From assembly GCA_038878695.1 (NCBI GenBank), contig JAVZVD010000001.1, forward strand, positions 248,001 through 312,000: DNA of 64,000 bases. Reading direction: 5' to 3'. The stretch's first letter is position 1. The number at the start of each line of letters is the position of its first letter. Positions 32,555 to 48,377 of the stretch are shown piece by piece. This stretch comes from Fervidicoccaceae archaeon. Its GTDB lineage: Archaea > Thermoproteota > Thermoprotei_A > Sulfolobales > Fervidicoccaceae. Position numbers and translations under genes: made by a program. The notes beneath the pieces are model-generated. The model saw only the letters and a list, made by a program, of their open reading frames with translations. It had not been told where the DNA came from and did not search any database.

Positions 32555-33277
32555 TTGGGGAAGAGGACATTAGTGCAGAGAAAGGGCCGCGGGGGGCCTA
32601 CCTTTAGGAGTAGAAGGCATCTGAAGATAGCCCCAGCCAAATACCCACCCGTCACGGAGAAAACTATCAGGGGAATAGTCGAGGACATACTTCACGAGCC
32701 CGGTCGGTGGACCCCTCTAGCTAAGATAAGAGTGATAGAAGATGGTTCAATCTTCTACGTGCCCGCGGCCGAGGGCCTCTTTATTGGGCAAACGATCTTC
32801 ATAGGTCCTGAGGCCGAGCCGCGCAACGGCAATGTGCTCCCCCTCGAGAAAATACCCGAGGGCACGCAGGTATTCAACGTAGAGCTGAGGGAAGGAGATG
32901 GGGGAAAGTTGGCCAGACAGGCCGGCTCCTATGCCGTCCTGATAGGGAAGACGGGGCAAGGCAAGGTGGTATTGTTATTGCCCAGCGGCAAGACGAAGGA
33001 AGTCGACGGGAAGGCGAGGGCTACCATAGGGATTCCGGCCAGCGGTGGCAAGATCGAGAAGCCTCTCCTCAAGGCCGGAGCGGCTTATCATAAGTGGAAG
33101 CCGAAGGCCAGGAAGTGGCCCATCGTGCGCGGCGTAGCCATGAATGCGGCTTCGCACCCGTGGGGCGGTGGCAGTCATCAGTCCGAGGGTAAGCCCACGA
33201 CGGTCTCGAGGAACGCTCCACCCGGTAGAAAGGTAGGCCATATAGCGGCTAGAAGAACCGGGAGGAGGAAGAGATAG
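32555..33277 (+). CDS. rpl2: Large subunit ribosomal protein L2
   Basis: 240 residues from a TTG start. The catalytic-centre loop region AMNAASHPWGGGSHQSEG is intact, with the conserved His in GGGSH, and the basic tail ends in RRTGRRKR. Normally S19, L22 and S3 follow in archaeal operons; here an unknown small protein follows. Confidence 0.97.
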   Translation: MGKRTLVQRKGRGGPTFRSRRHLKIAPAKYPPVTEKTIRGIVEDILHEPGRWTPLAKIRVIEDGSIFYVPAAEGLFIGQTIFIGPEAEPRNGNVLPLEKIPEGTQVFNVELREGDGGKLARQAGSYAVLIGKTGQGKVVLLLPSGKTKEVDGKARATIGIPASGGKIEKPLLKAGAAYHKWKPKARKWPIVRGVAMNAASHPWGGGSHQSEGKPTTVSRNAPPGRKVGHIAARRTGRRKR

Positions 33278-33314
33278 GAAGCCTCGAACGTGTCACCTAT
33301 GCGGAGGGTGTCAC

Positions 33315-33563
33315 GTGGTCAAAGCCTACAGATTCTACTACACGACTTTCTACGATGAAGAGCACGAGAGGGTCAAAGCCTATATCAAGGGGCTTTTCGG
33401 CATCGAGCCGATAGAGCACACATCGAGGATCCCAGGCTTTCGATGGATCGAGGTCAGATTCACCCGCGAGCTGCCGAAGGTGAACATAGAATCTTTGATA
33501 GAGTCTCTGAAGAAGATGTTGGGCGGAGACGCGTATGTGAGAGTCGACGTGATAGATCTCTGA
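33315..33563 (+). CDS. Hypothetical 82-residue protein downstream of rpl2
   Basis: 82 residues from a GTG preceded by a GGAGGGTG purine stretch. The order strand-helix-strand-strand-helix-strand can be read (AYRFYYTT, HERVKAYIKGLFG, FRWIEVRFT, SLIESLKKML, AYVRVDVIDL), which would suit a ferredoxin-like fold. I do not recognise it; it does not match S19, L22 or LX. Its position, 37 nt after rpl2, suggests a translation-related role. Confidence 0.65.
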   Translation: MVKAYRFYYTTFYDEEHERVKAYIKGLFGIEPIEHTSRIPGFRWIEVRFTRELPKVNIESLIESLKKMLGGDAYVRVDVIDL

Positions 33564-33662
33564 GTGTTGTGAGCGCTGACCGATCTACCCTTCAATTATT
33601 AAGCGCAGGGACTGAGAAGCCGGGCCAAAGAAGAGAACTGGGGCTTCTCGTCGACAACGCGC

Positions 33663-34673
33663 TTGGCCCGAGTCTTGATGCTCGGAGCTGGTATTTCCGA
33701 CTTTGCGGCAGCATTGGAGTTAGCGAATAAAACATCGATCAAGGTAGAACTTTTCGACCGTGGCGCTAGCTACTCGAGGTCGTGCGGTGAAGCGGCGATG
33801 AGAGAGCTCGAGAATATAAGTCCCGTAGAATTACCAATAGTAGCCGAAGTCTCGAGCTTTCATTTCGATCTGAGAGGTGGCGAGTCCTTCGAAGCAGACT
33901 TCACTAGTCCCGCGTGGTATATCATTGACAGGGGGCGTGAATGGCCTCGTTAAGAAAAATGAGGCGCGCAGAGCCGGCGCTAGGCTCCACTTTTTGCGCG
34001 TCAGAGACCCCCGGCCGTCAACAACGGCTCACCCCTGATAGATGCCAGGAGGGCCCTGGGTCGCTGGAAGCCTCGGGGAAAAGCCTCTGCTCTTAGAGCG
34101 ATCGCGAAGGCTGAGTGGAGCGGGGACCCGGCGGTCCTCGAGTACGACTCGAGACGCCTCACACCATCCTGGATCTTTCCCAGAAGACGTGGTCTCGTCA
34201 ATGTCGAGATCGCTCGTGCGCGTAGCGGAAACAGCAGAAATCTAATCGATGACTTGAGAGCCAATATCGAGGCTCACCCGAGGGGCGCCAAGGCTCTGAA
34301 TACGAGAGGATCCCTAATAGTAATAGTCGTCGGTGGTCCGGCGCCATGGAAGATCCATGGAAGATAGGTCCTCTCCTACGCGTTGGCGAGGCTGGAGGCT
34401 ATGTTCGCCCGCTGACCCACGAGGGCATAAGAACATCATCTACTCATGCGCTTCGCATAGCCGAAGCGATAACCAAGGTAGTAGATCTTCGGGAGGCTCT
34501 GAAAAATAGCTCGCTCGAAGCTTTCTGAGCTAGAATTAGAATCGCAGTTAAGGCTCAAAGCGCATCTTTTAAGAGTTCTAGAGAACATCGACCCAACGAT
34601 TAGAGCACTGCTGCTATCGAGTCTCAGGAGAAGCTTCGTTGAGAGGTTTCTGAAGACCGCGACATCGGTTTGA
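33663..34673 (+). pseudogene. Decayed geranylgeranyl reductase family (FAD-dependent) pseudogene
   Basis: The pieces of a geranylgeranyl reductase occur in the right order but in different frames. 33663-33953 encodes a Rossmann start whose GxGxxG is damaged (LGAGISDFAAA), then SCGEA and SPAWYIIDRG; the frame stops at 33951. The next frame continues with VNGLVKKNEARRAGARLHF. About 34135-34350 encodes PSWIFPRRRGLVNVEI. 34346-34528 encodes VGEAGGYVRPLTHEGIRTS, the conserved FAD-binding motif of the family, then stops. 34600-34673 encodes the C-terminal helix. Intact enzymes saturate archaeal lipid chains. At least three frameshifts or stops make a working product unlikely; sequencing error would have to hit several times. 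Confidence 0.75.
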
Positions 34674-34733
34674 GCGACGTCTTCACCGCGACAGTTCTTT
34701 CAACTTATAAGACAATAATAAAATTAAAATTGT
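34674..34733. other. AT-rich spacer between pseudogene and acylphosphatase
   Basis: About 60 nt, of which 34694-34745 is almost pure A/T (CTTATAAGACAATAATAAAA and onward). It separates the pseudogene from the convergent acylphosphatase gene and even runs into the last codons of the latter. No gene or repeat seen. Confidence 0.45.
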
Positions 34734-35030
34734 TTAATAAATTATAACAAAATCGTCGAACTCTCCGCGATAATCTTGCCACTCCAGCGTAACGCGCCTC
34801 ACCTTTGCTCGCGGAGGACCTCGCAGAGCCCACGTGATTACTCTCAGCACGTTCTCAAGCTCCCCCTCTATGACCGCCTCGACGCTGCCGTCCGGGTTGT
34901 TCCTGACCCATCCTTTTACTCCGTTGTTTAAGGCCACTCTGCGCATGTTCGCCCTGAAGAAGACCCCCTGCACTTCGCCTTCGATGCGCAGTCTGGCTCT
35001 CGCGCCTTCCAGAGAAAAGACACCCCCCAC
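34734..35030 (-). CDS. acyP: Acylphosphatase
   Basis: 98 residues from a GTG. The signature [14 protein letters not shown] (about 18-31) gives the catalytic Arg of GxVQGVxFR, and [17 protein letters not shown] supplies the catalytic Asn. The enzyme hydrolyses acyl phosphates. Slightly longer than the 90-residue norm because of an N-terminal extension; a later start is possible. Convergent with the upstream pseudogene. Confidence 0.93.
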
Positions 35031-35078
35031 TTATTTTCCCTCCTTAGGCGGGAAATAAGCGGAAGACGTGAGGGTGTA

Positions 35079-35609
35079 ATGACAGTCGAGCGAGAGATTA
35101 AGGTGAAACTAGATCAGCTGGACCTCGCCAAGCTCCGTGAGTGGTTGAACGATAGGTGCGTTCCTCTAGGCGAGGAGGTGCAGGTCGACACATACTTTCG
35201 ACATCCGTGCAGAGACTTCGAGGTAACCGATGAGGCGCTGAGGCTGAGGAAGCGGGGGGGAGCAGACCAAGCCGAATTGTGCTACAAAGGCCCCAGGAGC
35301 GTCGGAGGAGAGCTCGTCAAGGCAAGGGAAGAAATTGAGGTGAGCGTGAAGAGCGCGAGCGAGCTCTCACGCATCCTAGTAAGGCTAGGCTTCGAGCCTG
35401 TGGCCGAAGTTGTGAAAGAAAGGGAGATCTTCGATTGCGGGAATTTCATCACTTATCTAGATCACATCGAAGAGCTCGGCGACTTCGCCGAGTTCGAGGC
35501 CAGAGGGGTAGAGCAAGCCGAACTGGTGAAACTTCTCAAGAACTTTGGGCTCCTCGAGAAAGCGGAGAGCAGAACGTACTTAGAGCTATTGCTCGAGAAA
35601 CGCCGCTGA
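35079..35609 (+). CDS. CYTH-domain protein (CyaB/thiamine-triphosphatase type)
   Basis: 176 residues with the CYTH triphosphate-tunnel signature ExExK as EREIKVK at residues 4-10 and later charged strands (LRLRKRGG, LCYKGPR, REEIEVSV, YLDHIEELGDFAEFEA). These metal-dependent enzymes act on triphosphates; archaeal members are annotated either as class IV adenylate cyclase or as tri(poly)phosphatase. The substrate cannot be decided from sequence. Confidence 0.88.
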   Translation: MTVEREIKVKLDQLDLAKLREWLNDRCVPLGEEVQVDTYFRHPCRDFEVTDEALRLRKRGGADQAELCYKGPRSVGGELVKAREEIEVSVKSASELSRILVRLGFEPVAEVVKEREIFDCGNFITYLDHIEELGDFAEFEARGVEQAELVKLLKNFGLLEKAESRTYLELLLEKRR

Positions 35610-35697: not shown

Positions 35698-38160
35698 TTG
35701 ACGACGAAATTCGAACCAAGGATCGGCGAGAAGCGCTGGGACCACTCAACTGAGGAGACAAAGCTTTTGGAACTTTGGGAGCGAGAAGCTCCCGGAGCTT
35801 TTAGGCGAGACCAGATCCGAAAGAAGCCAACGATAGCTATCGACGTGCCTCCTCCCTACGCGAGTGGTAAATGGCATGTGGGAGGGGCAGCACATTACGT
35901 TCACCACGACATACTGATCAGGTACCTCAGAATGAGAGGCTATAACGTATTGGCTCCCTTCTACGCCGATCGCAACGGCCTGCCTGTAGAAGTTTACATA
36001 GAGAGGACGCGCGGGATAAACCCGCACGAGCTCGCGTCGACGCGAGAGGGAAGAGAGAAATTCCTCGAACTCTGTAAAGAGCAGCTTGACAAGACAGAGA
36101 GAGAGCTCGTTAAAATTTGGAAGAAGTTGGGTTGTAGCTTCGAGTATTGGCAGGAAGGCACCGATAGCTCTCTCTACCGGAGACTGACTCAACAAACATT
36201 CATTGAGCTTTGGAAGAGAGGACTAATCTACCTAGCCGAGAAGCCCGTGAGCTGGTGCCCCCGCTGCAGGACCTCCCTGAGCGAGGCCGAGATAGAGTAC
36301 AGGGAAGAGCAAGGTCGCTTATACTTCTTGAACTTTGAGCTGCTCAGAGGCGGGAAGGTCACGGTAGCTACCACGAGACCGGAGCTGCTCGCTGCGTGTC
36401 GAGCTTTGATCTACAACCCAAATGACTTAAGGTACTCCGGGCTCCGAGGAGAGAAAGCTCGGGTCCCGCTCTACGACCATCTGGTCTCAATTTTCGAGCA
36501 TCCATACGCTTCGCCTACCATTGGTACGGGCCTAATGATGGTATGCAGCTACGGAGATCAAGCCGACGTCAGGCTATTCCGCGAGCTTGGGCTAGAGCCC
36601 GTGGCCCTTATCAGAGAGGATGGAACGCTCAGCGAGCGAGCAGGCCGACTGGCCGGCTTGTCGGTGGTTGAGGCTAGGAGGAAAATAGTCGAAATACTCG
36701 AAGAGATCGGGGCGTTACAGAGAGCTGAAGATTATAAGCACACGATCCCTACCTGTTGGAGATGTGGCACGCGCGTAGAATACATACAGAGAAGAGAGTA
36801 CTTCCTCCGACAGCTCGACTTTAAAGAAGATCTCTTGAAAATAGTAGAAAATATTAAATTCTTTCCTGAATTTCATAAGAGAAAATTGATAGATTGGATA
36901 AATTCGCTGAGCATGGATTGGCCTATATCGAGAGACAGATACTACGCTACCGAGATCCCAGCGTGGAAGTGCTCTAGATGTAACGAGATCTTGGTCCCCG
37001 AGAAGCTGGATGAATATTGTAGACCGTGGAGAGACCCGCCCCCATGGGAGTTCTGCCCCAAGTGCGGAGCTCCTAGGGAGGAGCTCGTGGGAGAGAAAAA
37101 AGTCTTCGACACGTGGTTCGATTCTAGCATCTCCTGCCTCTACGTGACGGGCTACCAACGCGACTTAGAACTCTACGAGGCCGTGAAGGACTCCACGGTC
37201 AGAGTACAGGGCTACGACATCATTAGGACGTGGCTTTACTTCAGCTTGCTCCGAGTGTACCTCCTCACAGGTCGTCCTGCGTTCTCTTACGTGAGAATAA
37301 CAGGCATGGGCCTCGATGAGCGAGGCGAGGCGATGCACAAGTCCAAGGGCAACGTCATTAACCCAGAGCCTGTCCTAGAGGAATATGGCGCCGATGCCTT
37401 TAGATTCTGGGCGGCGATCTCGACCAAGATCGGCTACGACTACAGATTCTCGCCTCAACAGTTGAGAGCGGGGAAGCTATTCGTGACGAAGCTCTGGAAC
37501 ATAGCGCGCTTCATATCATCGTTCCCGGAGCCGGCGGCCGAGGCTCGCTCGACGTTGGTGGACCTGGACCGAGCTCTGTTGAGCAAGCTCAACTCCGTCG
37601 CCAGAGCCTACGTCAAGTACTTCGATGAGGAGCTTGACCACTTCGAGGCGACGCTCGTAACGTACAACTTCGTCTGGAACGTGTTTGCAAGCCATTACTT
37701 GGAGGCCGTCAAAGACAGAGCATACAACAGAACGGGCGATTGGTCTACGAGCGAGCAGCTGTCGGCTTGGGCAACCTTGCACGAGACCCTGCGAGGGATC
37801 CTAAAGCTCCTAGCTCCGATAATGCCGTTCATCACTGATGCCATATGGAGGAGGCTCTACGGGCCGAAGAGCATACACGAGGAGACGCTGGATCTCCCGA
37901 GGCCCGAGTGGGACTCTTGGGACTCGCGCTTGTTAGATCTACTCGTTACGATAAATGGAGAGGTCTGGAGATACAAGAGGAAGAGAGGTCTGACGCCGAG
38001 ACAGCCCGTCGCCGATGTGCTGTTCTACGTGCCCTCGGAGGCAGAGCCCCTCGTGAAGCACCTCGAGAAGTTACACGCGGCAAAGTTCGAGGTCGGAGAA
38101 CCTCCGCTCTACGCAGAGAAACTCGGAACGGTCTCTGTTGTTGAGCTCCGCCAGAGGTGA
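35698..38160 (+). CDS. valS: Valyl-tRNA synthetase
   Basis: 820 residues from a TTG. Class I signature HVGG (60-63, in PPPYASGKWHVGG) replaces HIGH, and KSKGN (in MHKSKGNVI, near 547-553) replaces KMSKS. The editing domain is present (VATTRPE), and two zinc clusters appear (CPRC/CWRC and CSRC/CPKC). DWPISRDRYYATEIP is typical of archaeal ValRS. A segment near residues 380-405 uses unusually A/T-rich codons. It overlaps the start of sufS by 4 nt. Confidence 0.93.
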   Translation: MTTKFEPRIGEKRWDHSTEETKLLELWEREAPGAFRRDQIRKKPTIAIDVPPPYASGKWHVGGAAHYVHHDILIRYLRMRGYNVLAPFYADRNGLPVEVYIERTRGINPHELASTREGREKFLELCKEQLDKTERELVKIWKKLGCSFEYWQEGTDSSLYRRLTQQTFIELWKRGLIYLAEKPVSWCPRCRTSLSEAEIEYREEQGRLYFLNFELLRGGKVTVATTRPELLAACRALIYNPNDLRYSGLRGEKARVPLYDHLVSIFEHPYASPTIGTGLMMVCSYGDQADVRLFRELGLEPVALIREDGTLSERAGRLAGLSVVEARRKIVEILEEIGALQRAEDYKHTIPTCWRCGTRVEYIQRREYFLRQLDFKEDLLKIVENIKFFPEFHKRKLIDWINSLSMDWPISRDRYYATEIPAWKCSRCNEILVPEKLDEYCRPWRDPPPWEFCPKCGAPREELVGEKKVFDTWFDSSISCLYVTGYQRDLELYEAVKDSTVRVQGYDIIRTWLYFSLLRVYLLTGRPAFSYVRITGMGLDERGEAMHKSKGNVINPEPVLEEYGADAFRFWAAISTKIGYDYRFSPQQLRAGKLFVTKLWNIARFISSFPEPAAEARSTLVDLDRALLSKLNSVARAYVKYFDEELDHFEATLVTYNFVWNVFASHYLEAVKDRAYNRTGDWSTSEQLSAWATLHETLRGILKLLAPIMPFITDAIWRRLYGPKSIHEETLDLPRPEWDSWDSRLLDLLVTINGEVWRYKRKRGLTPRQPVADVLFYVPSEAEPLVKHLEKLHAAKFEVGEPPLYAEKLGTVSVVELRQR

Positions 38161-48276: not shown

Positions 48277-48377
48277 TGGTGCGGGGGCGGGGATTTGAAC
48301 CCCGGACGGCCTGCGCCAGCGGATGTCCCCCAAGCAACTTGAGTCCGCCCCCTTAGCCCAGGCTCGGGCACCCCCGC
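48277..48377 (-). tRNA. tRNA-Leu (CAA) with 13-nt intron
   Basis: The acceptor stem GCGGGGG (48377-48371) pairs with CCCCCGC (48287-48281), followed by discriminator A and an encoded CCA (48279-48277). The T-arm is CGGGG TTCAAAT CCCCG. A 14-nt variable arm with a GGC/GCC stem makes it class II. The anticodon stem is GCGGA/TCCGC with loop CTCAAG-A, so the anticodon is CAA. After position 37 a 13-nt intron (TTGCTTGGGGGAC) interrupts the loop at the canonical 37/38 site; CTTG of the intron pairs with CAAG of the exon, giving the bulge-helix-bulge that EndA cuts. The intron boundary could be shifted by one base. Confidence 0.93.

Follow-up and report, generated by a model that had tools for sequence, protein, structure and literature searches.

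Archaea carry paralogues of geranylgeranyl reductase (GGR) whose function is described as little known in PMC10821996, which also places the catalytic cysteine of the S. acidocaldarius enzyme at Cys47 and supplies GGR-type locus tags of that species; a further tag, Saci_0986, comes from PMC10138448. Saci_1431 is suggested to be essential, on the basis of S. islandicus transposon work cited in PMC10821996, and saci_1431 is 29% identical to AF_0648, the menaquinone-specific prenyl reductase of Archaeoglobus fulgidus (PMC10138448). Desulfurococcus amylolyticus is listed there with only GGR and one paralogue (PMC10821996), so the lack of some GGR-type genes is not unheard of. The short GGR paralogues of the Sulfolobales are intact and share with the short orthologue group considered below the invariant Cys-Gly of the CG motif; in contrast, the locus described here holds a broken remnant. 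Digeranylgeranylglycerophospholipid reductase (NF041080, GGR proper) belongs to the same flavoprotein superfamily, but it is a separate gene, intact in the genome studied here, and its models are matched only weakly by the intact short orthologues.

The locus lies in a stretch of 64,000 nucleotides, the window, which spans G000:C1:248001-312000 of a 1.11-Mb genome (G000; 5 contigs, completeness 98.3%) whose host is probably a heat-loving archaeon with a small genome. We read positions 33663 to 34673 as the decayed orthologue of a short GGR-like gene, sited at the joint of a single inversion (rough probability 0.8). A pseudogene beside an inversion joint is ordinary in kind, and the cause in this case is likely to be specific. 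The features to which the text refers are given in window coordinates except for the last, which lies beyond the window.

32555..33277, plus strand: ribosomal protein L2, the final ribosomal gene in the left half of a split S10 cluster (Pfam, relatives)
33315..33563, plus strand: 82-aa gene of an unnamed family, following L2 as in four relatives (relatives' gene order)
33564..33662, no strand: joint A of the putative inversion, the 99 bp that separate the pseudogene from the 82-aa gene (gene order)
33663..34673, plus strand: decayed short GGR-like pseudogene (frameshift-aware alignment, tblastn, profile search, lost conserved residues)
33663..33953, plus strand: N-terminal FAD-binding piece of the pseudogene, with GAGISD for GxGxxG, CGEA and WYIIDRG; 96 codons open from TTG
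34095..34343, plus strand: middle piece with the catalytic-domain signature PSWIFPRRRGLVN, in the frame of the N-terminal piece (alignment)
34346..34528, plus strand: piece with VGEAGGYVRPLTHEGIR, in a different frame (open reading frames, frameshift-aware alignment)
34518..34673, plus strand: C-terminal remnant, in the first frame again, ending at TGA (alignment)
34734..35030, minus strand: acylphosphatase, convergently oriented to the reductase gene here, in G002 and in G004 (Pfam)
35079..35609, plus strand: CYTH-domain protein, a neighbour conserved in relatives (Pfam, relatives)
35698..38160, plus strand: gene that we take from its sequence to be valyl-tRNA synthetase, a conserved neighbour (relatives), also beside the intact orthologue in four genomes of another family (f11)
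about G000:C1:339126-339307: putative inversion joint B, between S19 and a zinc-ribbon gene (gene order)

No open reading frame spans 33663-34673 on the plus strand, where the longest piece in the right order has 96 codons. In the three-frame translation, CGEA, WYIIDRG and PSWIFPRRRGLVN share one frame with stops in between, VGEAGGYVRPLTHEGI stands in a second frame, and the frameshift-aware alignment makes use of the third frame too. Against a profile of the six intact orthologues from the same taxonomic family, this alignment extends over 33669-34625 and takes in columns 5-315 of the 337 in the profile. Its best path scores 179, changing frame six times without meeting a stop, compared with 110 when frame changes are disallowed, 20-28 for six mononucleotide shuffles and 29 for the reverse strand; the number of frame changes depends on the alignment penalties, and joining the pieces by hand used four. 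The unedited DNA yields tblastn pieces of up to 73 bits (E = 7e-16), and a profile of 12 intact relatives gives the locus 90 bits with three internal stops, versus 365-445 bits for the six intact family orthologues. A sequence-only reading of this DNA had described family segments in the correct order on the plus strand, in several frames and with stops, and had proposed alignment to intact reductases as a check; translation and alignment agree with that description. The G+C content of the remnant by codon position (0.58/0.49/0.56) is flatter than that of pooled genes (0.58/0.43/0.64), yet lies within the spread of single genes.

Decay extends to the conserved residues. The FAD dinucleotide motif, rightly called broken in the sequence-only reading, is GAGISD in the remnant, without the third glycine of GxGxxG that is present in all six intact family orthologues; the segment with the catalytic cysteine (SCGEA) and that with the WxFP cavity motif (SWIFP) can both still be found. 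The remnant retains 21 of 29 near-invariant columns (72%), compared with 88-100% of the leave-one-out set for each of 17 intact rows, which were chosen from the matches (six from the family, 11 from the order) with other matching rows unused. Among the eight losses, G has become D in the FAD motif and T, E, A or H elsewhere, and P has become T. By a cruder, hand-joined reading, 23 are kept of the 39 columns that are the same in all six family orthologues, a figure that overstates the loss because one motif was joined in the wrong frame. Of the 61 columns that do not vary among the five family copies other than that of G004, the intact G004 copy keeps 39 and the hand-joined remnant 33. The G004 copy is nearly as divergent as the remnant, and thus part of the remnant's distance reflects fast evolution rather than decay. 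Fast evolution within the family, together with the small excess of loss over G004, suggests that the reductase gene died recently. A death too recent for deletion would suffice to explain why the remnant persists in a compact genome, and we do not find this persistence strange, as the sequence-only reading did. With its orthologue intact elsewhere, its frame broken and conserved residues lost, the locus is a pseudogene, and judging by the broken frames and the lost FAD-site residues it would no longer yield a working enzyme.

It is very improbable that an intact gene only appears broken through assembly or sequencing errors. The genome is a draft and one frame change adjoins a run of five A, but about six frame changes fall within 1 kb, against none among 48 relative-supported open reading frames of the same genome (tblastn; at least 80 aa, supported by open reading frames of relatives, from five stretches, with a few that may be antisense shadows). 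Over those five stretches, tblastn gave three rows as candidates for a frame change, all of them at the pseudogene locus. Near-invariant residues are substituted as well, and frame slips could not have removed invariant glycines. Even harder to credit is that the remnant still functions, either as a short protein made from the 96-codon N-terminal open reading frame or as an RNA: it lies co-directionally 99 bp behind the L2 and 82-aa genes and may be read through, but the N-terminal piece has neither the catalytic domain nor the third glycine of GxGxxG, and no Rfam match occurs in 33200-35200 at E <= 1.

From their sequences, the short GGR-like orthologues are best classed as a divergent branch of the geranylgeranyl-reductase superfamily. 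Three intact ones score 65-76 bits against a TIGR02032 cut-off of 158.8, and one scores 22.1 against a PF22578 cut-off of 27. The remnant likewise stays below the cut-offs of both models; a Pfam scan of its two open pieces gave no GGR model match at E <= 1, and a PF22578 search of the genome matched two other loci and not that of the pseudogene.

To identify the gene that decayed, we compared seven relatives at the level of family (G001-G007). An intact short GGR-like gene of 328-365 aa is present in six of these (G002, G003, G004, G005, G006 and G007). In the seventh, G001 (71% complete), the other short paralogue alone was found at E <= 1e-20, and a copy of the short orthologue is absent from the 8,154-base contig that carries the zinc-ribbon gene and the main GGR. 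In a tree of 37 rows from 32 chosen loci plus the composite remnant, the remnant joins five of the six family copies with support of 96/98, a placement biased toward the family clade because the composite was fitted to the profile of those copies. The G004 copy falls outside this clade, and the end branch of the remnant (1.75) is the longest in the tree, that of the G004 copy measuring 1.66. With unedited DNA, the four best single tblastn pieces (73, 65, 63.5 and 61.6 bits) all go to family copies, and the fifth (60.8 bits) is a tie between G003 and G016, a genome of another family; the intact G004 copy gives no tblastn piece against the unedited pseudogene DNA at E <= 1. It is by its shared neighbours, and not by sequence rank alone, that we take the remnant as the orthologue of the family's short GGR-like gene; the gene in question is old and separate, and the remnant is its orthologue by position.

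We considered and rejected a dead duplicate of a surviving paralogue, as the genome's own short paralogue (G000:C3, 365 aa) shows only 25% identity to the joined reading (E = 8e-5) and only 29 bits to the raw pseudogene DNA. The earlier description of the locus as a recently dead paralogue thus stands as regards a dead gene of the GGR family, but it is a paralogue only in a wide sense, since its orthologue is kept by six of the seven relatives. Both the 365-aa paralogue and the main lipid GGR are intact in the genome. The latter, the former neighbour of the reductase, lies at G000:C1:339917, 58 kb from the pseudogene, and scores 513 bits with NF041080, short of the cut-off of 580, and 209 bits with TIGR02032, above the cut-off of 158.8. 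Elsewhere, the profile of 12 intact copies finds matches of at least 190 bits in 26 of 58 other genomes, the exact type not being assured for all; 23 of these count no stop and three count one, which by its coordinates is the natural terminator, versus three internal stops at the locus studied here.

The genes found around the reductase in the family are a 79-aa zinc-ribbon-like gene, the main GGR (about 460 aa), and those for CYTH-domain, valyl-tRNA synthetase, HD-domain, Pyr_redox_2 and acylphosphatase proteins. Three of them, acylphosphatase, CYTH and valyl-tRNA synthetase, still lie 3' of the remnant in the window, and the acylphosphatase gene is convergent with the reductase in G006 and G007 too, with one gene between. 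In the comparison with the syntenic place in relatives, also proposed in the sequence-only reading, the downstream neighbours are kept and the zinc-ribbon gene and main GGR lie elsewhere in this genome. The reductase, the zinc-ribbon gene and the main GGR occur in four arrangements across six family genomes; on the G005 contig, of which 10,000 of 12,936 bases were examined, the neighbours found are the zinc-ribbon gene and part of GGR. Where the reductase and the zinc-ribbon gene stand intact and head to head, they are separated by 86 bp in G002, 233 bp in G007 and 289 bp in G006. Intact copies of 325-329 aa in the four f11 genomes examined have the same valyl-tRNA synthetase and zinc-ribbon neighbours as here, the reductase being head to head with the synthetase gene and the zinc-ribbon gene near. 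The stretches examined in G016 and G012 showed no zinc-ribbon gene, and the sole match of valyl-tRNA synthetase type is distant (24%, in G012). Given that these neighbours are shared with f11 and not with G016 or G012, the neighbourhood predates the family without being general.

The zinc-ribbon-like protein is cysteine-rich (82 aa at L063:9308-9556) and tied to the GGR and valyl-tRNA synthetase genes. The copy in G000 is 44-57% identical to the family copies and 47-54% identical to the four f11 copies, with weak matches to RNA polymerase subunit P-like models and nothing stronger.

The pseudogene sits, as the sequence-only reading had noted, where S19-L22-S3 would be expected after L2. These genes are absent 3' of L2 in the window; S19 and L22 (and S3 by position) were found on the minus strand near G000:C1:337.5-339.1 kb, and S19 and L22 with the genes matching the post-L22 run of G003 occupy about C1:330.1-339.1 kb on that strand. 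There S19 adjoins two plus-strand genes, the zinc-ribbon gene and the main GGR, which is intact, across a gap of about 180 bp if the S19 start is placed at MSELEI, as we did; the listed open frame is longer and overlaps the zinc-ribbon gene. In G002, G003, G006 and G007 the gene order is L2, 82-aa gene, AAA_5 ATPase, VWA_CoxE protein, S19. Reversing C1:281.6 to 339.2 kb (about 57.6 kb) rejoins L2 and the 82-aa gene to S19, the two lost genes excepted, and the same reversal gives the arrangement of G006 and G007, in which the reductase faces the zinc-ribbon gene head to head and the main GGR comes next. The two new joints are reciprocal and reversal restores both orders except for the missing AAA and VWA genes, as expected of an inversion scar. 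We infer one inversion as the single event behind both joints, which would account for the missing S19-L22-S3 as well as for the position of the reductase; the absence of the AAA and VWA genes is not accounted for by the inversion alone. Separate moves of the two blocks would fit a reductase neighbourhood so often reshuffled (four arrangements across six family genomes), but the new joints are reciprocal partners and both are restored by one inversion, which makes separate moves rather improbable.

The AAA_5 ATPase and VWA_CoxE genes lie within the S10 cluster of four family relatives (L046:8929-11284, L044:6424-8744, L045:8745-11095 and L047:7346-9641), and in G004 the pair is likewise beside S19. 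A move of the two genes to another place in G000 was rejected, as no VWA match was found in that genome at E <= 0.001 and the sole AAA relative is distant (30%). Inversion through inverted repeats was also rejected, there being no exact match of at least 10 bases between the two joint regions compared. Nor is the break in the S10 cluster the one seen in G004, where L2 has been parted from the 82-aa gene; G004 keeps the 82-aa, AAA, VWA and S19 genes together, and its break is therefore taken as a separate event. ABC-transporter genes follow L2 in G004 (L043:7458-9614, L066:10696-13787), apparently a second break of the ribosomal cluster in the family.

The single inversion, of about 57.6 kb, would have separated S19 from the L2 and 82-aa genes at one joint and the 5' end of the reductase from its zinc-ribbon neighbour at the other, so moving the reductase behind the L2 operon. 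At joint A, where an AT-rich stretch is still present, it would have cut the reductase from its promoter, and after this loss the gene would have decayed neutrally, accumulating frame changes and point changes. We prefer this order, inversion first and decay second, at about even odds. The alternative differs in the order of events alone: the reductase would already have died, no longer being needed, when the inversion by chance fell beside it. Such a gene is dispensable, given that 19 of the 58 other genomes have no match at E <= 1e-20 to the profile of 12 intact copies while 26 reach 190 bits, and the AAA and VWA genes at the split are likewise not found in G000. However, nothing dates the events, and with the other joint falling in the ribosomal cluster the joints needed no dead ground; we regard an earlier death as somewhat unlikely.

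The S. acidocaldarius counterpart of the dead gene is probably Saci_1431, as judged from gene order and spacing. Six GGR-type loci of G045 (f11), hand-picked from 15 GGR-type matches, agree with the six locus tags in the literature (Saci_0292, 0316, 0986, 0991, 1431 and 1567) in rank and spacing with r 0.998, a fit that is supportive, not proof, and from which a locus at 685,591 (51.6 bits, half of the model) was omitted though it outranks two of the six. For the locus expected as Saci_1431, the predicted tag is 1445 by interpolation and 1465 by a line through the other five. By the homology cited above, the reaction lost is likely to have been the saturation of a different isoprenoid, which may be a quinone tail; with the main lipid GGR and the 365-aa paralogue intact, the ether-lipid chains should be saturated as before. 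Tentatively, and at odds somewhat short of even, we propose that one inversion both split the ribosomal operon and killed an isoprenoid reductase by depriving it of its promoter; with the Sulfolobus counterpart a suggested essential gene, this lineage would show how a cell can come to do without such an enzyme. If so, the order of loss of the reductase could be dated, and a patch of broken sequence would be turned into a specific event that explains a split ribosomal cluster together with a dead lipid-enzyme gene. Neither a dead archaeal GGR nor such an inversion was found among the titles and abstract openings of the papers retrieved from open-licence PMC literature, and a search by locus tag yielded no paper on the genes around Saci_1431. 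The lineage is in effect a natural knock-out of the short GGR paralogue that retains the main lipid reductase, and comparing quinone, dolichol and lipid saturation with that of relatives could reveal the role of the short enzyme.

Two minor observations concern other genes of the window. The 82-aa gene at 33315-33563 is a neighbour of L2, or of AAA in G004, and is 38-48% identical to its counterparts in five relatives; its best Pfam match is non-significant (E = 0.13) and it has no NCBIfam match at E <= 0.1. The sole tRNA that ARAGORN predicts in the window is a 101-base tRNA-Leu at 48277-48377 with anticodon AAG, which is unusual and could stem from an intron or be a spurious prediction.
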